A stretch of 64,000 bases of DNA from a virus: IMG/VR virus record IMGVR_UViG_3300044681_000369, positions 1-64,000 of that record; one strand, 5' to 3'. Below the pieces are notes generated by a model. That model saw nothing but the letters and a program-made list of their open reading frames with translations. It searched no databases and was not told where the DNA came from. Numbering within the stretch: the stretch's first letter is position 1; every line of letters starts with the position of its first letter. A program made the position numbers and the translations under genes. Positions 5,346 through 63,789 of this stretch are shown piece after piece.

Positions 5346-6444
5346 GATCCTCAATTTCTTTGTTAGCTTTGCTCAAAGCACTACCTATAACCTGATGCAT
5401 ATCATAATACTGATACTCACCTAGTCTCCCACCAAAAATTATATTTGGATGCTGTTTGGCAAGTTCTGCATACTTTCTATACAACTCTTTGTTTCTATCA
5501 TTATTTATAGGGTAATAAGGATCTACTCCGCGTTTCCAATCTTGAGGATACTCTTTAGTTATTAAAGTTCCTTTTGTCTTGGCGCCTGTGAACCACTTAT
5601 GTTCCATAACTCTAGTATACGGATGATCGTCTGAGCAATAATTTACTATCGCTCGGTCTTGATACTCATCCACATCATGATCTTCGTGTTCAAATCTAAG
5701 GCTGCGGTATTCTAGTTCACCATAACAATAATTAAAGAATTGATCTATACCACCAGAAAACACAATTTTCTTTGCTTTTGGCTCAATAGAACTAACATTG
5801 TATTCTATTCCAAGTTGAATGTCAATACCTTCTAGCATCTTTTCGAAAAGTTTTGTATATCCAAATTTGGGTATACCCATAAACTTATGATCATCACCAA
5901 AATAGTTATCATTCCAATCGAACCGCAGAGGAAGTCTGCGAATTATAGATGCTGGTAAATCTTTAGGATCAGCATTCCACTGCTTTCTAGTATATTCCTT
6001 GATTAGCAGTTCATATATTTCTGTGCCTACCATCTGAATGGCTTGTTCTTCCAAATTTTTAGGCTTTCTGCCAAGATTTGGTCTTTGTGACTCAATCTTT
6101 GCTCTTGCCTCATCTGGGTCTGTTATTCCCCAAACCTCTTCAAAGGTGTGCATAGTAAATGGCATTGAATATAGAATGCCATCTGTTCCGTATGCCTTTA
6201 ACTTGTGTTCATACGGCAAAAAATCTGAAAATTTATTTACAAAATTCCAAATCTTTTCGCTGTTTGTGTGAAACATATGCGGTCCATAAACATGAACGTC
6301 TACACCATTTTTGTTTTCGGTGTATGCGTTTCCTCCTATATGGGTTCGCCTATCAATGACCAAGCAAGATTTTCCTGCGTCTGTCATCACTCTTGCGAAT
6401 GTGGCGCCGAAAAAGCCGGCGCCAACAATTAAATAGTCGTGCAT
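5329..6444 (-). CDS. glf: UDP-galactopyranose mutase
   Basis: A 371-aa flavoprotein. The N-terminal FAD-binding fingerprint is YLIVGAGFFGATFA at 4-17 with the acidic VIDRR about 20 residues on. Conserved Glf features follow: IGGNAYTE, YGPHMFHTN, and late RxGxYxYYDMHQVIGSA carrying the C-terminal FAD/substrate segment. The enzyme interconverts UDP-galactopyranose and UDP-galactofuranose in the cytoplasm, supplying Galf for surface polysaccharide. Length equals that of bacterial Glf. The gene is coupled to the sulfotransferase downstream and belongs to the accessory glycan cluster. No frameshift is visible and all key motifs are present. Confidence 0.93.
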   Translation of the reverse strand: MHDYLIVGAGFFGATFARVMTDAGKSCLVIDRRTHIGGNAYTENKNGVDVHVYGPHMFHTNSEKIWNFVNKFSDFLPYEHKLKAYGTDGILYSMPFTMHTFEEVWGITDPDEARAKIESQRPNLGRKPKNLEEQAIQMVGTEIYELLIKEYTRKQWNADPKDLPASIIRRLPLRFDWNDNYFGDDHKFMGIPKFGYTKLFEKMLEGIDIQLGIEYNVSSIEPKAKKIVFSGGIDQFFNYCYGELEYRSLRFEHEDHDVDEYQDRAIVNYCSDDHPYTRVMEHKWFTGAKTKGTLITKEYPQDWKRGVDPYYPINNDRNKELYRKYAELAKQHPNIIFGGRLGEYQYYDMHQVIGSALSKANKEIEDHVYTQ

Positions 6445-6461
6445 ATGATCTCACTATGTAA

Positions 6462-6641
6462 TATGGCCCGCCCTATGCCCTCCGGCTTCCAGAAGACATT
6501 CATCTCGCTCTGATCGACGGGCAACCAGAGTCATATCCGCTTGTGCTAGCCGACATGCGCCCAAACGGAAAAAGGCATGTCGGACTCTGGCTAAGCAAGG
6601 GAGGTGCGATATTGAAAAGACCCCCACAATTTGTGCCTTGA
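6462..6641 (+). pseudogene. GC-rich plus-strand reading frame, likely remnant of a foreign protein
   Basis: An open frame of 59 codons follows a TAA at 6459-6461 and ends at TGA 6639-6641. It is on the opposite strand from all other genes. The translation looks like real protein (for example LIDGQPESYPLVLADMRPNG, then a K-R-H-V-G-L-W-L-S-K-G-G stretch), but no good ATG opens it, and the only in-frame ATG (6555) would leave 28 codons. The R-H-V-G-L-W-L segment resembles the central His strand of NlpC/P60-type peptidases, weakly. Its composition (roughly 54% GC by eye) exceeds its neighbours. I read it as the 3' end of an acquired gene, but it could be chance. Confidence 0.35.
6525..6590. repeat. 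Compound inverted repeat in the tRNA region
   Basis: Perfect 9-bp arms CCGACATGC (6550-6558) and GCATGTCGG (6575-6583), immediately followed on the right by ACTCTGG (6584-6590), which pairs with CCAGAGT (6525-6531). This is a long imperfect stem with an 18-nt left bulge. It may be a structured RNA or simply part of the GC-rich fragment it lies in. Confidence 0.5.
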
Positions 6642-6680
6642 ATCCTTACCGGTACCGGCGGATTCTTCCAGAGATTTATC

Positions 6681-6756
<76 letters not shown>

Positions 6757-6760
6757 AAAA

Positions 6761-6834
6761 TGGTGCCGGTTGAGAGAATCGAACTCCCATCAGAGGATTA
6801 CAAATCCACTGTATTACCATTATACTAAACCGGC
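6761..6834 (-). tRNA. tRNA-Thr (UGU)
   Basis: 74 nt with encoded CCA. The anticodon loop TTTGTAA gives UGU and the acceptor GCCGGTT/AACCGGC is perfect. One mismatch occurs in the anticodon stem. Confidence 0.92.
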
Positions 6835-6844
6835 TTAGTCTTAT

Positions 6845-6873
6845 ACTTTATCAAGATTTATAACGGTTGTCAA
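6845..6873 (-). promoter_or_regulatory. Early promoter for tRNA-Thr/tRNA-Asn
   Basis: Minus-strand TTGACA (6873-6868), a 17-nt spacer and TAAAGT (6850-6845), just before tRNA-Thr and overlapping the end of the GDPD-like gene. Confidence 0.6.
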
Positions 6874-7300
6874 GAACTTTTCTACCATAATCACAACAAA
6901 TTGCATAACAGTTATATGTCTTGCCATTAGGATAGTCTGGAATGACAATCACAGTGTTATCGGTATAATTTTCCTGATCTACTGTCCAAATATAATTTCG
7001 ACTTGTTATAACATATTCGTCAACGTTATGCCAGAAAAAATTATATGGACGATTTCGTTTTGACAGCCACTCAAGTGCGGCTAAATTTTTGGTATGAATC
7101 CAGAGTTTATCGTTATTCAGAAATGTTGAGTCGATAGGATAATCTGGACCATCGTGACCCAAATAAAACCGATCTGCAACTTTCCACAAATCAACTTCAA
7201 CATCAAAGCCTAAACTCAATGCCTCATTAATTTGATTTGGCGAATTTTCCCTGTCAATATCGGGTCCGTCAAGAAGACCACGGTGCGCTATGATTTTCAT
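6851..7300 (-). CDS. Glycerophosphodiester phosphodiesterase-like protein (short)
   Basis: A 149-aa protein beginning IIAHRGLLDGPDIDREN, the H-R-G plus E-N of the GDPD active site. GFDVEVDLW at about 31-39 gives the metal-binding E-x-D, and YLGHDGP at 47-53 supplies the second catalytic His. These are the GDPD-fold signatures, but the protein is about 100 residues shorter than glpQ-type enzymes. Similar short forms occur in capsule gene clusters next to nucleotidyltransferases and HAD phosphatases, the exact neighbours here. It overlaps the nucleotidyltransferase gene by 32 nt. A role in phosphodiester-linked sugar or glycerol-phosphate processing is inferred. Confidence 0.7.
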   Translation of the reverse strand: MKIIAHRGLLDGPDIDRENSPNQINEALSLGFDVEVDLWKVADRFYLGHDGPDYPIDSTFLNNDKLWIHTKNLAALEWLSKRNRPYNFFWHNVDEYVITSRNYIWTVDQENYTDNTVIVIPDYPNGKTYNCYAICCDYGRKVLDNRYKS

Positions 7301-7991
7301 CGTTAAAATGCCTCAAATCTTCTGGTGTACCCAATCCCCACATTCTCGCAATCTCATATGTGCCAATCCTAAAATTATCAGCAATGGCTTCGTTGAATAC
7401 AGGGCAAACATAAAACTCATTGTTAACTCGTACATCTTTGGCAATCATCTGCCTAGCATACTTAACGTAGTCACTGCCTCTTTGCCAGTAATAGATGCCA
7501 ACTGTAGCATTATCACTGATAGGATTCTTTTCGGCAACTTGAACTACTAATCCATCCTCATTAGTCTTCGCATAACTCCATTTAGTTTCAGTTGCCTTAA
7601 ACGTCATGATGTTTCCATCATACCAATGACTACTATCGATAAAGTCTTTGACGCTACCCTCAACATATTGATCTGAGTTTGCTATCAACAAAGGCTGATC
7701 GTTGTCAATGTAGTCGGCTGCCAGAAGTGTGGTACATGCCGCACCTTCTGTCATGTAATCAATATCTATAATAGTACACCCTGGAGCGGCAGAAGTCAAG
7801 ATATTTTTTAAATCATATTTTTCCAGGTGACTCTTTTGGACGATAAAAATATAGTTCCCAGCTATTCCCAAGTTGTCAATGACAACCTCAATCATACGCT
7901 TACCGAATATCGGTATAAGCGGTTTAGGATCAGAGTATCCAGCTTGAGCAAACCTGCTTCCTAAGCCAGACATGGGAATTAATATATTCAT
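7269..7991 (-). CDS. Sugar-phosphate nucleotidyltransferase
   Basis: A 240-aa protein. The N-terminus (ILIPMSGLGSRFAQAGY at 3-19, then PKPLIPIFGKRMI) is the nucleotide-binding signature G-x-G-x-R-F...PK of NTP_transferase-fold enzymes that make NDP-sugars from sugar-1-phosphates. N-S-D-Q near 104-107 replaces the usual metal-binding acidic motif. It lacks the C-terminal beta-helix of larger pyrophosphorylases. The gene overlaps its upstream neighbour (GT-like/HAD protein) by 4 nt and its downstream GDPD-like partner by 32 nt, so the three are one operon unit, probably making an activated sugar or polyol. Confidence 0.78.
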   Translation of the reverse strand: MNILIPMSGLGSRFAQAGYSDPKPLIPIFGKRMIEVVIDNLGIAGNYIFIVQKSHLEKYDLKNILTSAAPGCTIIDIDYMTEGAACTTLLAADYIDNDQPLLIANSDQYVEGSVKDFIDSSHWYDGNIMTFKATETKWSYAKTNEDGLVVQVAEKNPISDNATVGIYYWQRGSDYVKYARQMIAKDVRVNNEFYVCPVFNEAIADNFRIGTYEIARMWGLGTPEDLRHFNDENHSAPWSS

Positions 7992-47194: not shown

Positions 47195-48400
47195 TTAAAA
47201 AGGCACCTCGTCAGTGGATGCAGGTTCGTTTTCACCCACCGGTTCAGCGGTGTCACTATTAATTGCCTTCGCATCAACCTTGGTGTAAAGATCAAGGAAG
47301 GCAGCCTTGGTATCCGAATCAAAACGGTTCACACACAACTCAACTGCACGGGCACGATTGCCAAACATGGCGAAAGCATTGACAATGTGTTCCAGACGGC
47401 GGGTAGAAATCAGGTCGTCAATACCACCATCGTAGAAAGTCTTACGGATGATTTCAGCCCAGGTGACCAGGTTGTCGGCAAACTCCTCGTCAACCGCACC
47501 AGCCTTTTCCATCTTATTCAGAACAATCTTCTTTTCGACGGCAGCGGAAGGATATTCCTGCTCGACAGTGATAGCGAAACGTTCGAGGAAGGCGTCATCC
47601 AGGATCTGGGCCGAGATGAACTTACCATCATCAGAACCACGACCCTTAGTGTTGGCCGTAGCAATCACATTGAAGCCCGGCGCAGGGTAGACAGTCTCGC
47701 CAGTCTTCTTATTGAAGTAGGGCTTGCCTTCGAGGATTGCCTGGAGGCACATCATCTTATTCGAGCCGCGGTCAATTTCATCCAGAATGAGGATCGCACC
47801 GCGCTTCATGGCAGTGAGAACGGGACCTTCGCGGTACACCACGTTACCATCGATCAGGGTGTTGCCACCGATCAGGTCGTCTTCATCCGTCTCAACTGAG
47901 ATATTGACACGCAAGGCTTCACGCTTTAGGGCCGCGCAAACCTGCTCGACCATGGTGGTCTTGCCGTTACCAGACAGACCAGAGATAAAGGTGGGGTAGA
48001 AGACCTTAGCCTTGATTACCTTGGTCAGGTCCTTGTAGAACCCAAACGGCACAAAGGTCGGATCCTTGAAGGGCACCAGATTGTCTACTGTCACTTCCAT
48101 CTTGGCTTGAGTAAGTACCTTAGCTGGTTCTGCCGCTACTGGACGCGGCTTGGAAACAATCTCGGTAACTGGCGCGGGCTTACTGATAGAAACCACATTG
48201 GCGGCAACCGAAGAACTGTTACCAAGAAAACCATTGAGGTCGTAAACGCCGCGAGAAACGTTATTGTCCTTATTCAACAGCCACTCCAGCTTTTCAATAC
48301 CCATCGGGTGAGCGATGGCAAAAACGTCCTTCTTGCGGAAGAGACCGTTGTTGGTATTGGCCGAACGGAGGGCTTCAATCAAACTATCATTAATATTCAT
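47195..48400 (-). CDS. CobS-like MoxR-family AAA+ ATPase
   Basis: A 401-aa protein with an N-terminal region of about 100 residues including a winged-helix-like start and Pro/Ala linker. The AAA+ core has G-L-S-G-N-G-K-T-T near 139-147 (Walker A), I-L-I-L-D-E-I-D-R-G-S near 203-213 (Walker B) and sensor segments (ATANTKGRG). This is the MoxR/CobS group commonly labelled cobaltochelatase subunit CobS in T4-like marine phages. No vitamin B12 pathway genes are present, so partnership with the VWA protein encoded upstream (48523-50814) is more plausible. It has its own early promoter. Confidence 0.88.
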   Translation of the reverse strand: MNINDSLIEALRSANTNNGLFRKKDVFAIAHPMGIEKLEWLLNKDNNVSRGVYDLNGFLGNSSSVAANVVSISKPAPVTEIVSKPRPVAAEPAKVLTQAKMEVTVDNLVPFKDPTFVPFGFYKDLTKVIKAKVFYPTFISGLSGNGKTTMVEQVCAALKREALRVNISVETDEDDLIGGNTLIDGNVVYREGPVLTAMKRGAILILDEIDRGSNKMMCLQAILEGKPYFNKKTGETVYPAPGFNVIATANTKGRGSDDGKFISAQILDDAFLERFAITVEQEYPSAAVEKKIVLNKMEKAGAVDEEFADNLVTWAEIIRKTFYDGGIDDLISTRRLEHIVNAFAMFGNRARAVELCVNRFDSDTKAAFLDLYTKVDAKAINSDTAEPVGENEPASTDEVPF

Positions 48401-48444
48401 ATCTCAATCACCTTTTGCATAATAAATCATCAATCAACATGTAT

Positions 48445-48473
48445 ATAATACGAAATCCTGGGGTAAAAGTCAA
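48445..48473 (-). promoter_or_regulatory. Early promoter for the CobS-like gene
   Basis: Minus-strand TTGACT (48473-48468), a 17-nt spacer and TATTAT (48450-48445). The -10 and the following bases are identical to those of the CobT-like gene promoter over 18 nt (48433-48450). Confidence 0.82.
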
Positions 48474-48506
48474 CACATTTTTTAAAGAAAGTGATAACTT
48501 TTACCC
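48461..48506. repeat. Perfect 10-bp inverted repeat at the cobS promoter
   Basis: GGGTAAAAGT (48461-48470) and ACTTTTACCC (48497-48506) flank a 26-nt loop. The left arm overlaps the promoter -35. It may be an operator, or a weak terminator for the CobT-like gene whose stop is at 48523. Confidence 0.55.
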
Positions 48507-48522
48507 TATGGATATCAATAAC

Positions 48523-50814
48523 TTACGCAACCGCCTCAATCATCTTGGTAAGCACCGAGCGGCTGGTACCCTTCTTGACCTGCATCTTCTTGAAGGCCTT
48601 CAGGATCTGTCCCTTAGCGGCACCGTCTTCAACCTCAAGAATGTCATCTTCAGTATTGAGACTGCCACCCTTCAGGATAAATTGCTGGTCAAATCCAGAC
48701 ACACCAGAAAGGACTGCGGTACCTTCCTTGAATTCCTTACGAACTTTGTTCCGGGTTTCCCAGTCGATTTCCTTAGTTCCGTAGCAGAGGTCATCAATGT
48801 AATATGCAGCCTGACGCCGGTCAGCCACAAAGAAATTGATTACCCTAGAACCAGTAGTTTGCTTATACAACTTCAAAAGTGCGGTAGCAAACATACGGCG
48901 ATTGCCAGAACCATAACGATCAAACTGACCAGTGCTAGGCTGAATTACAGTAAGATTGGTCTTTGCATCCGTGATTGCCATGTTATTCCTGCCGACACGG
49001 ATATTATTGTCCATAGGCGAGAAGTGACCGTCGCCATCGCCGTCAGTAAGGAACACGGTAGAGAGAACCTCAACACGATACTTAGTCCGGAATTCTTCAG
49101 CCAGATACCGAGCAACCATAATCGACTCTTCCAGAGGAGTGCTAGAAGACAAGCCGATCTTTGCCGAAGTTTCATTGGTAAGACAAACACTGCCACCCAT
49201 TCCAGCCGCTTGACCATATACCAGAAGGTTGCGCATCTGGATCTTGAACTTGGTGGAAGAAACATTGGTGCTAACCAACTGAAGGATACGGAAGTAACTA
49301 TTATCGATTTGAAGGTTTTTAGTGTCAGTGCGGTCATTACGCCCGTAGAGTGCATCCAATTCGGTATACTCTTGCGGGCAATAGTGATTGCTAGTAAAGC
49401 CATAGACTTCAAAAGGAATTCGAACTTTCTGGCAAAACGAAGCCAGAAGAACCAGCTGTTCCATCGTACCTTGAATGTTGGAACGCATTGAGCCAGACAT
49501 ATCCAAGAACATCAGAATGCCGTGGTTCTGCCCGTTGGGCACAACTGTCTGCTGGAGAAAAACATCTTCCGTCAGCTTATATGCCCAAATTTTATCCATG
49601 TTGATGCGACCAGTCTTGGAAGACCGCGCACGGGCAAATTGCTTGGCCTGCTTCTTGCGGTCAAAGTCCTGAACCATTGCATTCAGGTACTTATTATTCT
49701 TTGCAAGAAATTCCGCGTAAACTTTGGCTGGGAAAGCATTGATATCCTCGACAGGATCATTATTGTAAAACGGATAATACCGGCTGGTCTGGGACTCAAT
49801 CTTGACATTATTGTGGAAATAATCAACACCGAGAATAAAGTCAGCGGGGTTCAACTTGCCGAGGCGTACATAGGTATTTTCGCGGGCGTTGTCATCCAGA
49901 AGACTGTCCTCGCTTTCACGGAACTTTTGATCCGTGTAGCTAGACGGCTCAGACGGCTCTTGGTCTTCCTGAAATTCACCACCACTACCAGGAGTGGAAT
50001 CAGTATCGGCACTGTCCTTGTCTTGATTTTCGGTATTGTCTGATTCGGCATCAGAAGACTCGGCAGTTTCATCGGCAGCCGCCTCTTCAGCAAGATCACT
50101 CTTTTCATTAGACGAGCCGGGTTCGGCCTGAGCGTCCTCTTGCGGTTCGGTCTGCTCACCAACAGGAGCATCAGACGGCATATCAAGGCCATCCATTTCC
50201 ATTTCTTCAGCCAGAGACTGCATGGCATCCATGAAGTCTTCCCACTGAGACTCCTCTTGAGTGGTGTCAGCCCGCTCATAGAGTTCGGTAGCCAGGGCTA
50301 CCACATCGTCCCAGGTATTCAGAGTGTCAAGACGGTTAACAAAGGCTTGTTCATCAGCCGAGAACTTGATGTTAAGGAAAGAGCCAATCTTGGCGTAAAG
50401 ATTGATACGGTCGATAAACTTTAGCTTGTTAACGTCCATACCCTTGACGCCAAAGAAGTCCTTGTCGAACAATTCTTTGTAGCCGTTGAAAAACGAACGG
50501 CGAAGACCTGGATACTTTTCCTTCTGCATCCGTTCGATACGGGCGTCTTCAATGATGTTGAGAAAGCCCTTGAAGCCGCTGCCACGCTCACTCACGGAGT
50601 CGTGCCAACCTTCTTTGGGGGTGTTGAGGGCGTGACCAACCTCGTGACCAATAAGCAGGTCATAAAGATCGGGCGACATGTTTTTCCAGATGGGGAGAAC
50701 TACCGTGCGGGTAGCCAGGTCGAAGTAGGCAGTCTGTACCTTCTTATGTTCGACCGAGATGTTTTCAGTAGCCAGCAGTTTGGCTAGAATGGACTTTTCA
50801 GCAACATTGGTCAT
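48523..50814 (-). CDS. CobT-like protein: HEVGH metallopeptidase-like domain, acidic linker and VWA domain
   Basis: A 763-aa protein. Residues 50-110 hold L-I-G-H-E-V-G-H-A-L-N (His57, Glu58, His61), a classical HExxH zinc motif, followed by I-I-E-D-A-R-I-E about 26 residues later with possible third ligand. About 200-300 is a very acidic low-complexity linker (Asp/Glu/Ser). The C-terminal part has a VWA domain with the MIDAS F-L-D-M-S-G-S-M near 438 and T-D-G-D-G-D-G near 573. It is labelled CobT in marine T4-like phages; with the AAA partner it is more like a MoxR-VWA pair, here plus a potential peptidase. Activity untested. Confidence 0.82.
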   Translation of the reverse strand: MTNVAEKSILAKLLATENISVEHKKVQTAYFDLATRTVVLPIWKNMSPDLYDLLIGHEVGHALNTPKEGWHDSVSERGSGFKGFLNIIEDARIERMQKEKYPGLRRSFFNGYKELFDKDFFGVKGMDVNKLKFIDRINLYAKIGSFLNIKFSADEQAFVNRLDTLNTWDDVVALATELYERADTTQEESQWEDFMDAMQSLAEEMEMDGLDMPSDAPVGEQTEPQEDAQAEPGSSNEKSDLAEEAAADETAESSDAESDNTENQDKDSADTDSTPGSGGEFQEDQEPSEPSSYTDQKFRESEDSLLDDNARENTYVRLGKLNPADFILGVDYFHNNVKIESQTSRYYPFYNNDPVEDINAFPAKVYAEFLAKNNKYLNAMVQDFDRKKQAKQFARARSSKTGRINMDKIWAYKLTEDVFLQQTVVPNGQNHGILMFLDMSGSMRSNIQGTMEQLVLLASFCQKVRIPFEVYGFTSNHYCPQEYTELDALYGRNDRTDTKNLQIDNSYFRILQLVSTNVSSTKFKIQMRNLLVYGQAAGMGGSVCLTNETSAKIGLSSSTPLEESIMVARYLAEEFRTKYRVEVLSTVFLTDGDGDGHFSPMDNNIRVGRNNMAITDAKTNLTVIQPSTGQFDRYGSGNRRMFATALLKLYKQTTGSRVINFFVADRRQAAYYIDDLCYGTKEIDWETRNKVRKEFKEGTAVLSGVSGFDQQFILKGGSLNTEDDILEVEDGAAKGQILKAFKKMQVKKGTSRSVLTKMIEAVA

Positions 50815-50847: not shown

Positions 50848-50876
50848 ATAATAGCAAAAGGGCTGACCGTAGTCAA
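50848..50876 (-). promoter_or_regulatory. Early promoter for the CobT-like gene
   Basis: Minus-strand TTGACT (50876-50871), a 17-nt spacer and TATTAT (50853-50848), sharing 18 nt (50836-50853) with the CobS promoter. Confidence 0.82.
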
Positions 50877-50881
50877 CCCTT
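50854..50881 (-). terminator. Terminator hairpin overlapping the cobT promoter
   Basis: Minus-strand stem AAGGGTTGAC (50881-50872), loop TACG, GTCAGCCCTT (50867-50858), with one G-U pair, then TTGC. It lies 45 nt after the stop of the secreted protein gene. Its left arm is also the -35 of the cobT promoter. Confidence 0.65.
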
Positions 50882-50925
50882 TTTATCGTTTTTTTCAAAT
50901 TTTCTTTTCGTTTGGAATCAACCAC

Positions 50926-51282
50926 TTAGCGACATACATGTTCCGCCAAGCGATATGGACGACCATACCTGTCAAATTCCGTGGTGTATACTGTATAACA
51001 CTTGACTCGGTAAGGCATATCACGGTAAACACCACGATAGCGGCGATCCTCATAGCGAGTGTCAGGGTAGTCATACCCACCACAACCACGACGGCAAGCG
51101 TCTCTACCACCGCGATGTCCGCGGTCATCATCCAAGGCTTCGTTGATTGCCGCACCAATAATGATGCCACCGATCAGTACGGCTGCATCGTTGTTACGTC
51201 TCCCATGATCGGCATATGCAGGTGAAGACACCATAAAAGCCAGAGCAAGGGCAGAAGCAACAGTAGCAATTTTCTTAATCAT
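50926..51282 (-). CDS. Secreted basic protein with glycine-zipper
   Basis: A 118-aa protein. The N-terminal signal peptide (MIKKIATVASALALAFMVSS, cleavage at A-Y-A-D) is followed by an Ala/Gly-rich stretch (AAVLIGGIIIGAAINEALDD) of glycine-zipper type. Then comes an Arg/Asp/Tyr-rich C-terminal half (RHRGG, DYPDTRYEDRRYRGVYRD), with 4 Cys residues that could form disulfides. It would act in the periplasm or outer membrane. Perhaps an envelope-modifying or exclusion protein; unknown. It has its own early promoter. Confidence 0.62.
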   Translation of the reverse strand: MIKKIATVASALALAFMVSSPAYADHGRRNNDAAVLIGGIIIGAAINEALDDDRGHRGGRDACRRGCGGYDYPDTRYEDRRYRGVYRDMPYRVKCYTVYTTEFDRYGRPYRLAEHVCR

Positions 51283-51636: not shown

Positions 51637-51644
51637 TATTTATA
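51637..51644 (-). promoter_or_regulatory. Possible T4-type late promoter
   Basis: TATAAATA on the minus strand, overlapping the end of the ClpP-like gene and only 5 nt from the ATG at 51631. The start point would fall at or after the ATG, so it may be chance or drive a shorter product. Confidence 0.35.
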
Positions 51645-52293
51645 CTTCGTCGGATGTTTCCTGAGTCTTCTCAATCTTCTTTGTTCTTTTTGATCTAGTT
51701 TTATTTTTCACTTCATCTGGTTTCTGAAGTTTCTGAAGTCTCTTTATAACTTCTTGGGCATCCATCCAAATGTCTTTATTGTCCAACATAGATTTAATTT
51801 CATCGTTGGTCAGGAAGTCCTTATAAAAAGAAGTAAACAGTTTTTCAGACCACGTTCTGAAGTGTGTGATTTGATCATACATTTCTCCACCTTTGCCCAT
51901 GGCACCACTAGAGTAATTGTGGAACATAAACATGGTGTGATCGGACACCTCGTATGAATGACCAGCTAAGAAAATTAAGGTTGCGGCAGACATGCATATG
52001 CCTTCAACAGACACAATCACATGACCTTTACATTCTTCAATTGCTCTAACTAACTGAAGTGTTGCAAATAGATCGCCACCCTCGCTGTTAATACGAATGT
52101 AGACAACATCGTTTTCGCTTACGCCTCGAAGAATTTGAAACCATTCAACATACTCTTCTGCGCCTTGTATTGGTCCACAAAGATATAGATTTATTACCCT
52201 TGCGATGGGTTGCTCAAAGAACTTCGGTCTAAACAACGCTTCAATATCGTTCGTAGTATCTGGTAATTGCTGTGATTTTTTCGATTTGCGCAT
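51640..52293 (-). CDS. clpP: ClpP-like serine protease
   Basis: 217 aa from the ATG at 52293. The crotonase-like ClpP fold has I-N-S-E-G-G-D near 68-74, G-I-C-M-S-A-A-T-L near 98-106 with the nucleophile Ser102, M-F-H-N-Y near 123-127 with His125, and Asp near 174. The N-terminal stretch is longer than usual and the C-terminus is very basic (KNKTRSKRTKK). No ClpX or ClpA is in this window, so it may act with a host ATPase or without one. Phage ClpP homologues otherwise act as head maturation proteases, but here gp21 does that. A modified host degradation role is inferred. Confidence 0.85.
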   Translation of the reverse strand: MRKSKKSQQLPDTTNDIEALFRPKFFEQPIARVINLYLCGPIQGAEEYVEWFQILRGVSENDVVYIRINSEGGDLFATLQLVRAIEECKGHVIVSVEGICMSAATLIFLAGHSYEVSDHTMFMFHNYSSGAMGKGGEMYDQITHFRTWSEKLFTSFYKDFLTNDEIKSMLDNKDIWMDAQEVIKRLQKLQKPDEVKNKTRSKRTKKIEKTQETSDEV

Positions 52294-52621
52294 CAATGAT
52301 TGCTACCCTGTTTGGCCAATGAATGTATTCCTTTTCTGGATTCTTCATTAGGTTATATAATAGTGGAAGAATTAAATTTTCTACGTCCTTGAGTTTAGAT
52401 GCCACATCGGATTCAACTAGAGCCTTGTATTGCTCTACTTGTGCACCGTTATCCATTCCGATTAGTTTCGACTCAAGATCAAAAAGTTTTTTCATGATCT
52501 CGTCTTTCAGGTCTCCGGTATCAACGGTTACCTGAGTTGTAGTAGGTTGTGCTTGAACCTCTACAGGATCTTCAAACGAAAATCCAAAATCATAAGTTGT
52601 GTTGGAGATATTTCCTGACAT
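52241..52621 (-). CDS. Coiled-coil hypothetical protein
   Basis: A 126-aa acidic protein with a long predicted helix (DLKDEIMKKLFDLESKLIGM, then VASKLKDVENLILPLLYNLM). The C-terminus (NRVAIIDAQIEKITAITRYY) is also helical. It overlaps both clpP (53 nt) and the deformylase gene (32 nt) in different frames, an unusually dense arrangement. The family is unknown. It may be a partner of the ClpP-like protein but nothing in the sequence shows it. Confidence 0.55.
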   Translation of the reverse strand: MSGNISNTTYDFGFSFEDPVEVQAQPTTTQVTVDTGDLKDEIMKKLFDLESKLIGMDNGAQVEQYKALVESDVASKLKDVENLILPLLYNLMKNPEKEYIHWPNRVAIIDAQIEKITAITRYYERY

Positions 52622-53108
52622 ATTTCTTTGCTCTCTTTTCTAGTGATTTTAATGCCATCTTCATCTTTAACTCAGACGCATGATCAGAAAAATTCAAGCC
52701 TTCCATATGATCATATTCATGCTGAAAAATTCTAGCAGGCAAACCATCCAGTTCTTCAACAATAGTTTCGCCCGTCTCATTTTGATAGCTTACAACTACA
52801 GACTTAGGTCGCTTAATATTTAGCCATAGTCCAGGATAACTCAAGCATCCTTCCTTGGCAATATTGGTTTCTTCAGATGTGGAAATAATCTTAGGATTAA
52901 ATACATTCTTTCTGTTGTTTTGATCCACGCCCATAACAAAAACTCTAGCATCGATTCCAACTTGATTTGCGGAAAGACCTAGACCCTTTAATTGTCTACA
53001 TTTATTCCAAAGATCGTTAGCCAAATCTCTGGCAGATGTGGTTTCATCAAACACAAAGACTGATGGTTTGACTCTAAGTTTTGGATCGGTAAATTTAAGA
53101 AGTTGCAT
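52590..53108 (-). CDS. def: Peptide deformylase
   Basis: A 172-aa zinc/iron hydrolase. The three motifs are all present: G-L-S-A-N-Q-V-G near 44-51 (motif 1), E-G-C-L-S near 86-90 with metal-binding Cys88 (motif 2), and Q-H-E-Y-D-H near 129-134 with His130, Glu131, His134 (motif 3). It removes the formyl group from new proteins. Marine T4-like phages often carry it, perhaps to increase turnover of host or phage proteins. It has no C-terminal extension. The next gene begins just after the stop. Confidence 0.95.
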   Translation of the reverse strand: MQLLKFTDPKLRVKPSVFVFDETTSARDLANDLWNKCRQLKGLGLSANQVGIDARVFVMGVDQNNRKNVFNPKIISTSEETNIAKEGCLSYPGLWLNIKRPKSVVVSYQNETGETIVEELDGLPARIFQHEYDHMEGLNFSDHASELKMKMALKSLEKRAKKYVRKYLQHNL

Positions 53109-63129: not shown

Positions 63130-63789
63130 TTATTTTACAGATAAGTTTTCTAGGAATTTATTGAAGACAGCAAGTTTTGCCTCTTCAAGTTGCTTTTTAT
63201 TGGCTTTGCGGATGTTACGCTTTGCCATATCACAGTGTTGCTCTGTCCATACGCCGTTTACTATTACCCACTCTTTGTTTTCCATAATGCCTCTAACAAA
63301 AGCATCTGGTGCAGATGGGTCTGCCACAATATCGGCAGCAGTTGCTAAATGAAAATCATCTTGTACAACTTGAACGCCTTCTTTATTTTCTCTAAGAGTA
63401 CCTAAACCGCGAGAAGATACTGCTAATTGCCCGCCAGATTCGATAAGGCCTCGGGCAATATTGCCCATAGGTGTTTCTGTGATTTTTGCTTTACCCATCC
63501 AGTTGTCACCGTCTTTCCATAACTCAGTAATGATATGTGAAACACGATCTAGATTGATAGAAGGGCCATCAGGATGACCTAACTCACCAAACGCTCTTTT
63601 GTTTGCAACCGATTCTTTCATGTAACGGTCGACTTCTTTTTCCATGACTTCGCCTGGATACATACGACCGTTACGATTTTTTAAATTTGATTGTAAAAAG
63701 ATGCCTTCAATGTAAAGGTTCTTTTTGCCTGAAGATGACTCTTCGGCAATGTAACGAACTTGCTCGTTAACTTCTGTGATAAGTTTCAT
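63130..63789 (-). CDS. 21: Prohead protease (T4 gp21)
   Basis: A 219-aa serine protease of the herpesvirus-assemblin-like fold (S77). L-Y-I-E-G-I-F-L-Q-S near 24-33, G-R-M-Y-P near 39-43, G-E-L-G-H-P near 65-70 with catalytic His69, and A-V-S-S-R-G-L-G near 136-143 with Ser139 or 140 are the conserved motifs. It cleaves scaffold and capsid proteins after [LIA]-x-E. T4 gp21 is 212 aa. It overlaps the stop of the upstream gene (TAATG). Confidence 0.94.
   Translation of the reverse strand: MKLITEVNEQVRYIAEESSSGKKNLYIEGIFLQSNLKNRNGRMYPGEVMEKEVDRYMKESVANKRAFGELGHPDGPSINLDRVSHIITELWKDGDNWMGKAKITETPMGNIARGLIESGGQLAVSSRGLGTLRENKEGVQVVQDDFHLATAADIVADPSAPDAFVRGIMENKEWVIVNGVWTEQHCDMAKRNIRKANKKQLEEAKLAVFNKFLENLSVK

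Follow-up and report, generated by a model that had tools for sequence, protein, structure and literature searches.

A pair of adjacent genes in a marine phage encodes a MoxR-type AAA+ ATPase and a von Willebrand factor A (VWA) partner, the latter carrying a conserved HExxH motif. The pair lies on the minus strand of a 64,000-nucleotide stretch of viral DNA, referred to here as the window, which corresponds to positions 1 to 64,000 of the 140,970-base IMG/VR virus record IMGVR_UViG_3300044681_000369. The "CobT-like" protein of 763 amino acids (48523–50814) consists of an N-terminal HExxH domain, an acidic linker and a VWA domain, and the 401-residue AAA+ ATPase of the MoxR/CobS type is encoded at 47195–48400. 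The carrier is a T4-like marine phage, since genes resembling gp43, gp44, gp45, gp46 and gp47 surround the pair, as judged from open-reading-frame translations and synteny with annotated phages rather than from a family search. The reading favoured here, on an even balance of belief, is that the two genes encode one AAA-driven protease or remodelling machine, which would act on replication-recombination proteins of phages and plasmids. An earlier note on this DNA had placed both open reading frames at these positions, correctly, and its interpretation of them as a MoxR AAA+ plus a VWA protein with an HExxH domain, carrying a misleading label, is supported.

The N-terminal domain comprises about residues 1–200 (50215–50814) and contains the sequence HEVGH at residues 57–61 (50632–50646). 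Starting 28 residues past His61, as the note had read it, an E-D-A-R-I-E segment begins with Glu89; it belongs to a longer motif, N86-x-x-E89-D90-A-R92-I93 (50536–50559), which is invariant in alignments A1 and A3. The numbering of His57, Glu58, His61, Asn86, Glu89, Asp438-x-Ser440-x-Ser442, Thr559 and Asp591 was checked. HExxH is present in all 114 relatives that cover the region (80 IMG/VR contigs and 34 genome-assembly loci, L013–L126; the truncated open reading frame L127 is outside this count). The motif was not part of the pattern used to search for these relatives. It is not due to chance, and the observation is confirmed as far above chance. N86, E89, D90, R92 and I93 belonged to one search pattern, and their invariance in the 61-sequence alignment described next is therefore partly selected. 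The E-D-x-R-I segment lies 22–46 residues past the first histidine of HExxH in the 114 relatives and 32 residues past it in the window protein. In an alignment of 61 N-terminal sequences, which descends to about 20% identity and reaches bacterial mobile elements, the only invariant columns are P41, H57, E58, H61, N86, E89, D90, R92, I93 and G103. Moreover, H57, E58, H61, N86, E89, D90 and R92 are all invariant in 10 phage sequences picked without that pattern. The N86-x-x-E89-D90 segment is also retained in plasmid relatives and in the archaeal virus HHTV-2, and HExxH is kept in each of the six plasmid VWA proteins examined. The conservation that the note had called for thus extends to Glu89, a candidate third metal ligand.

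The AlphaFold2 model of this domain (mean predicted local distance difference test score, pLDDT, 86.5; predicted template-modelling score, pTM, 0.82) places HExxH on a helix of residues 48–64 and Glu89 on a helix of residues 79–100, which is preceded by a short three-stranded stretch. The gluzincin arrangement, an HExxH with a glutamate on the following helix, is present as judged from the sequence and the predicted helices. In a Foldseek search of the PDB the nine best matches to the model were all zincins (jannalysin, abylysin, selecase and ArdC). The search thus placed the class expected from the note at the top, but at low significance: the best E-value is 0.096, the probability reaches 0.96 and the template-modelling scores are low, so that the result is evidence by ranking and not a significant single match. 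In a library of viral structures the strong matches were phage proteins annotated as VWA or CobT, and the lower ones SprT-like, IrrE-like and M48 proteins. Searches of PDB sequences with the 763-residue protein or its N-terminal domain, by single sequence and by profile, gave nothing convincing.

In the archaeal virus HHTV-2 the HExxH domain, the VWA domain and the AAA protein are each encoded by a gene of their own (L180:416–1483, 1703–2989 and 5983–7365), and its cobT has been described as split (Liu et al. 2021, PMC8651126). The separate 355-residue protein has HEVQH and N-V-L-E-D, and it is matched by the model of the window N-terminal domain in the viral library (R4T663, E 1.4e-3). Because it occurs as a separate protein, the HExxH...N-x-x-E-D domain represents a module of its own, and the 355-residue protein looks like the protease domain standing alone.

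The linker that follows (about residues 205–292, 49939–50202) is rich in Asp, Glu and Ser and predicted to be disordered, with pLDDT below 50 over residues 205–286; Asp or Glu account for 31 of the 92 residues in the region 201–292. The VWA domain (about residues 431–720, 48655–49524) contains the metal-ion-dependent adhesion site (MIDAS) D438-x-S440-G441-S442 (49489–49503), which is invariant or nearly so in 40 homologues, together with its partners T559 (49138–49140) and D591 (49042–49044). The long acidic linker and the intact MIDAS reported earlier were therefore both found. The best PDB matches of the full-length model are the VWA domain of NorD in NorQ complexes (9qh6, 9qhe) and the MIDAS of human midasin, both of them VWA domains whose partners are AAA rings of the MoxR type or of midasin.

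The neighbouring 401-residue protein is indeed a MoxR-type AAA+ (AAA_5, E 7.9e-19; CobS, PDB code 9ujv, E 8e-22). Its Walker A motif GLSGNGKT (residues 141–148, 47957–47980) has G141, G144, G146 and K147 invariant in alignment A2, as are L204, L206, D207 and E208 of Walker B (residues 204–208, 47777–47791), which ends in D207-E208. Its closest named relative is from Pelagibacter phage HTVC008M, with 52.8% identity. In PHROGs it belongs to family 249, named "porphyrin biosynthesis" (E 7.5e-113), and the larger protein to family 459, named "peptidase" (E 8.9e-185, residues 5–762). The larger protein has no match in Pfam (up to E 1), NCBIfam or PADLOC.

The AAA gene is present in 79 of the 84 loci with at least 2.5 kb of downstream sequence. 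Of the remaining five, two have a divergent AAA gene upstream (L118, L124), two are truncated open reading frames (L113, L127) and one is a 46-kb fragment (L091). Cyanophage records contain the VWA and AAA genes in equal counts (365, 61 and 24 for both). Gp158 of Listeria phage A511 is an AAA protein of this type, and its direct neighbours gp157 and gp159 have neither HExxH nor MIDAS. The earlier note would have been contradicted by an HExxH that is not conserved or is buried without a third ligand, together with an AAA partner missing from genomes that keep the CobT-like gene; instead, the candidate ligand Glu89 is conserved, zincins head the fold search and the AAA gene is rarely missing.

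The core "host-derived" gene set of marine cyanophages is held to include cobS, for which a part in raising vitamin B12 levels in infected cells has been discussed. Liu et al. 2021 regard the cyanophage "peptidase" as a misannotated CobT (PMC8651126), and on that account viral CobS and CobT would work with the host CobN to raise cobalamin output. The kinship with CobT is likely real: the mobile-element relative P0003 matches PF06213 (E 3.6e-12), the profiles of the phage and CobT N-terminal domains align, if weakly (29% probability), and among the solved AAA proteins of the CobS, NorQ and CbbQ types the window AAA+ scores best with CobS. The catalytic motif separates the two groups. Bona fide CobT proteins were sampled by a PF06213 search of 200 genomes of one phylum. 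The 30 best-scoring loci (24 of them with a CobS-like AAA within 1.5 kb) entered one alignment with 28 forms from phages and mobile elements, a few of the latter rows being one locus fetched twice. All 30 CobT proteins lack HExxH, with H57 replaced by S, A or Q, E58 by M, L, I, F or A, and H61 by R, K, Q or N, while the equivalents of E89 and R92 are kept in all 30. In the phage and mobile-element forms H57, E58, H61, N86, E89 and D90 are kept in 28 out of 28. The absence of the catalytic residues from every sampled CobT suggests that the cobalt-insertion subunit and the putative protease share an ancestor.

The AAA partners diverge as well. The maximum-likelihood tree has several long branches and an arbitrary root. 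Within it, supported branches set off CobS (23 rows) and the T4-like phage AAA proteins (9 rows), each on a side of its own, and the plasmid and integrated-element forms mostly cluster separately. The phage AAA scores 83.4 bits against the CobS equivalog model TIGR01650, for which the cut-off is 558.55, and the 763-residue protein matches neither PF06213 nor PF11775 in Pfam up to E 1. CobN, from the host in the published proposal, was not found in the 140,970-base record, which may be incomplete. The absence of HExxH from CobT and the separate CobS clade speak against the misannotated-CobT view, and a role in raising cobalamin output appears highly improbable. These data argue against a cobalamin enzyme encoded by the phage genes and indicate that, as the note had held, the cobaltochelatase label is misleading. 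Separately, the VWA/CobT-like gene of Escherichia phage Cyrano (OV696614.1:43173–45242) is annotated as a dimethylbenzimidazole phosphoribosyltransferase, probably by confusion with an unrelated enzyme that is also named CobT.

The genes around the pair point to DNA replication and recombination. In P-SSM2, HTVC008M, S-SSM5, P-TIM68, ACG-2014f, S-SSM7 and Ochrobactrum phage OC it is located between gp46/gp47 and gp45, and the order uvsW-gp55-gp47-gp46-VWA-AAA-gp45-gp44 is found in several T4-like phages. Among T4-like loci from sequence collections with enough flanking sequence, gp46 is upstream in 60 of 73 and gp45 downstream in 41 of 54. The pair adjoins uvsX and a primase-helicase in Stenotrophomonas phage DLP6. 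In SSU5, nickie and Rhizobium phages its neighbour is DNA polymerase III, with a ligase or primase gene not far off, and in ICP2 polymerase A and a helicase of the DnaB type are close by. Several loci filed under bacterial or archaeal assemblies, such as "Euryarchaeota archaeon TMED129" (L094, L095, L097, L104, L106, L112 and others), carry T4-like genes such as uvsW, gp55, gp47, gp46, gp45 and gp44, and are probably phage contigs binned into cellular genomes.

Plasmid relatives were retrieved via the protein, regardless of their neighbours, and show a comparable context. IncC plasmids have the order AAA-x-ssb-bet-exo-DUF3150-VWA and an Allochromatium plasmid RecT-exo-AAA-x-DUF3150-VWA-radC. 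Similar orders occur in Citrobacter, Pseudomonas and Proteus plasmids, RecT-exo-AAA-DUF3150-VWA in two of them and exo-AAA-DUF3150-VWA in the third; a Xanthomonas plasmid has AAA-DUF3150-VWA, with RecT and exo not found in the stretch examined. In each of nine integrated-element loci (L118–L126), the 14–18 kb covered include one or more of ssb, bet/RecT, exo, RadC and a RecB-like nuclease. Among the 72,556 records of PLSDB, the VWA query gave 1,129 matches and the exo query 1,126, with nearly equal genus counts, as separate queries whose intersection was not counted. These matches do not represent 1,100 independent cases, because many are clonal IncC copies. The literature searched on SXT bet and exo does not mention the neighbouring AAA and VWA genes; most subscription journals lay outside the coverage of the literature searches. 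Taken together, the neighbourhoods are suggestive of a role in recombination.

In plasmids and integrated elements a DUF3150 (PF11348) gene regularly comes immediately before the VWA gene (L132:7615–8892, L133:7911–8885, L121:6835–7806). None was observed among the annotated T4-like phages, and no mention of DUF3150 was found in the literature searched.

The mobile carriers also raise the possibility of a host-takeover or anti-defence protease, which would cleave a host defence or regulatory protein acting on the incoming DNA. The second PDB fold match of the N-terminal domain is ArdC, a plasmid antirestriction protein, and an anti-defence function would also agree with the presence of ssb-bet-exo in the plasmid module and with the early-type promoter-like sites described below. 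However, genes for anti-defence usually occupy variable positions, and here synteny is conserved within the core replication block of the phages; in addition, the match to ArdC is weak, its architecture differs and neither window protein was matched in PADLOC. This explanation is considered rather unlikely.

Sites resembling sigma-70 promoters (TTGACT-N17-TATTAT, found by motif scan) precede both the VWA gene (50848–50876) and the AAA+ gene (48445–48473) on the minus strand. Eight sites of the form TTGAC-N17..20-TATWAT were observed in the window against 0.49 expected. The T4-type late motif TATAAATA occurs at 11 sites from 4724 to 63123, all on the minus strand, against 3.97 expected, and for this reason the late promoters of the phage are probably of the T4 type. 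No TATAAATA is found directly upstream of either gene, and both appear to be of the early type, as the note had supposed, as far as promoter-like sites can tell. A terminator-like hairpin of 12 pairs, with a T-rich tail behind it (50856–50883, minus strand), shares sequence with the -35 region of the VWA-gene site; it could end an upstream transcript or regulate that of the VWA gene.

The timing bears on a published proposal. Iyer et al. 2021 described a MoxR AAA+ with a metallopeptidase-vWA cochaperone in group 2.2 jumbo phages and proposed a role in virion assembly by analogy with the MoxR-vWA system of an archaeal virus (PMC7824862); the MoxR and vWA proteins would then serve as chaperones and the protease would trim structural proteins. 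Conjugative plasmids, which form no virion, carry related pairs, the sites directly ahead of both genes are early-type promoter-like sequences and not TATAAATA, and the phage already encodes a T4 gp21-type prohead protease (63280–63729). These three observations speak against a role limited to the virion, and an assembly machine of this kind is thought unlikely.

According to the favoured reading, a protease or remodelling machine for replication-recombination proteins, the VWA domain of the larger protein would engage a MoxR-class AAA+ ring. The partner would carry its gluzincin-type zinc protease at the N-terminus on the flexible acidic linker, with His57, His61 and Glu89 as presumed zinc ligands and Glu58 as the catalytic base. 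Movements of the ring driven by ATP, as in NorQ-NorD, might present a bound client to the protease domain or pull it there, and peptide cleavage could follow. The likeliest clients would be proteins of the element's own replication-recombination complex, or host proteins on that DNA.

Several observations weigh against this reading. Both histidines are gone, replaced by S/R and K/T, in the Nickievirus phages nickie and hairong and in Stenotrophomonas phage BUCTxx99, but the gene pair persists there, and the CobT-like proteins of these phages retain the MIDAS and the AAA partner (L170:6983–9067, L173:283–2361, L174:280–2265). In ICP2 HExxH is retained, with no E-D motif where one would be expected. 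Not every lineage therefore depends on catalysis, and with CobT there are three lineages in which the domain has no catalytic site. Since the pair survives in two phage lineages whose catalytic histidines have disappeared, the "self-contained proteolytic machine" of the earlier note stays an interpretation of the sequence. The fold matches of the N-terminal domain are weak, as given above. Gene neighbourhood is a suggestive pointer to the client and not proof of it. Moreover, a comparison of T4-like genomes from 2010 had no cobS in those outside the cyanophages (PMC3037559), which shows that T4-type replication can do without the pair.

The same lineages bring up a metal-insertion or pure remodelling machine resembling NorQ-NorD, where HExxH would hold or deliver a metal, or be structural, and no peptide would be cut. 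Such a function would fit the best VWA fold match, NorD, whose partner ring NorQ drives iron insertion (PMC13036017), and the architecture kept without HExxH in CobT, Nickievirus and BUCTxx99. Glu58, which would be a catalytic base rather than a ligand, is nevertheless invariant together with the histidines, and CobT, which does serve metal insertion, lacks H57, E58 and H61 alike. A machine that inserts metal or only remodels is accordingly doubtful.

The protease-machine reading can be widened to a single AAA-VWA-gluzincin machine with which mobile elements would recombine and replicate their DNA, common to T4-like phages, phage-plasmids, IncC-type conjugative plasmids, integrated elements and archaeal viruses. 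It would clear or process proteins on recombining DNA, and CobST would be its protease-dead branch; this generalization is offered tentatively, as one that may well prove too broad. The two published readings, a virion-assembly peptidase and a CobT mistaken for a peptidase, are now set against a third, which can be tested by a single-residue mutant. If the link to recombination is true, many phages would share an uncharacterised step of protein remodelling with the conjugative plasmids that spread drug resistance.

Other genes near the pair, all on the minus strand, include one for a Clp protease family protein (51640–52296, PF00574, E 1.8e-13), which is the third gene upstream of that for the VWA protein and adds another gene of protease type near an AAA+ gene. 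Just upstream of the VWA gene a 118-residue protein (50926–51282) has a signal-peptide-like start, a glycine-rich stretch and no PHROG match. A peptide-deformylase-like open reading frame (52590–53108) is directly downstream of the gp46-like gene, and a peptide deformylase is annotated at the equivalent place in Ochrobactrum phage OC, between endonuclease subunit 2 and cobT.

The arrangement is not a new architecture, being known in jumbo phages from the work of Iyer et al. 2021. In their description the same three parts are arranged in the same way: a MoxR AAA+ gene, a neighbouring vWA protein and an N-terminal metallopeptidase domain in the latter. The window pair shows each of them, with an AAA+ beside a vWA gene, a MIDAS-bearing vWA domain and an N-terminal domain of metallopeptidase type, for which the fold E-values are weak. 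Agrobacterium phage Atu_ph07 was considered as the source of the published example and rejected, as the protein accessions do not match. That report, in the part available, gives one example pair and a virion role, and the recombination-module context is a difference of the present analysis. Relative to the literature searched, the contrast with CobT in the catalytic site and the recurrent recombination context are new.

CobS/CobT (PF06213, PF11775, TIGR01650) shares with the phage pair the AAA+ with a VWA partner and the acidic linker, and CobT keeps the equivalents of Glu89 and Arg92. It differs in the missing HExxH of CobT and the separate clade of CobS, and the phage protein is outside both CobT Pfam models. 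NorQ/NorD likewise combines a MoxR AAA+ with a two-domain VWA partner containing a flexible linker, and the NorD VWA is the best structural match; however, NorD serves iron insertion into nitric oxide reductase. The closest solved folds to that domain are the minigluzincins jannalysin and abylysin, selecase and ArdC, which are zincins of the HExxH type. Their solved chains are not VWA fusions, unlike the phage protein, and the similarity is weak (E 0.1 or worse).

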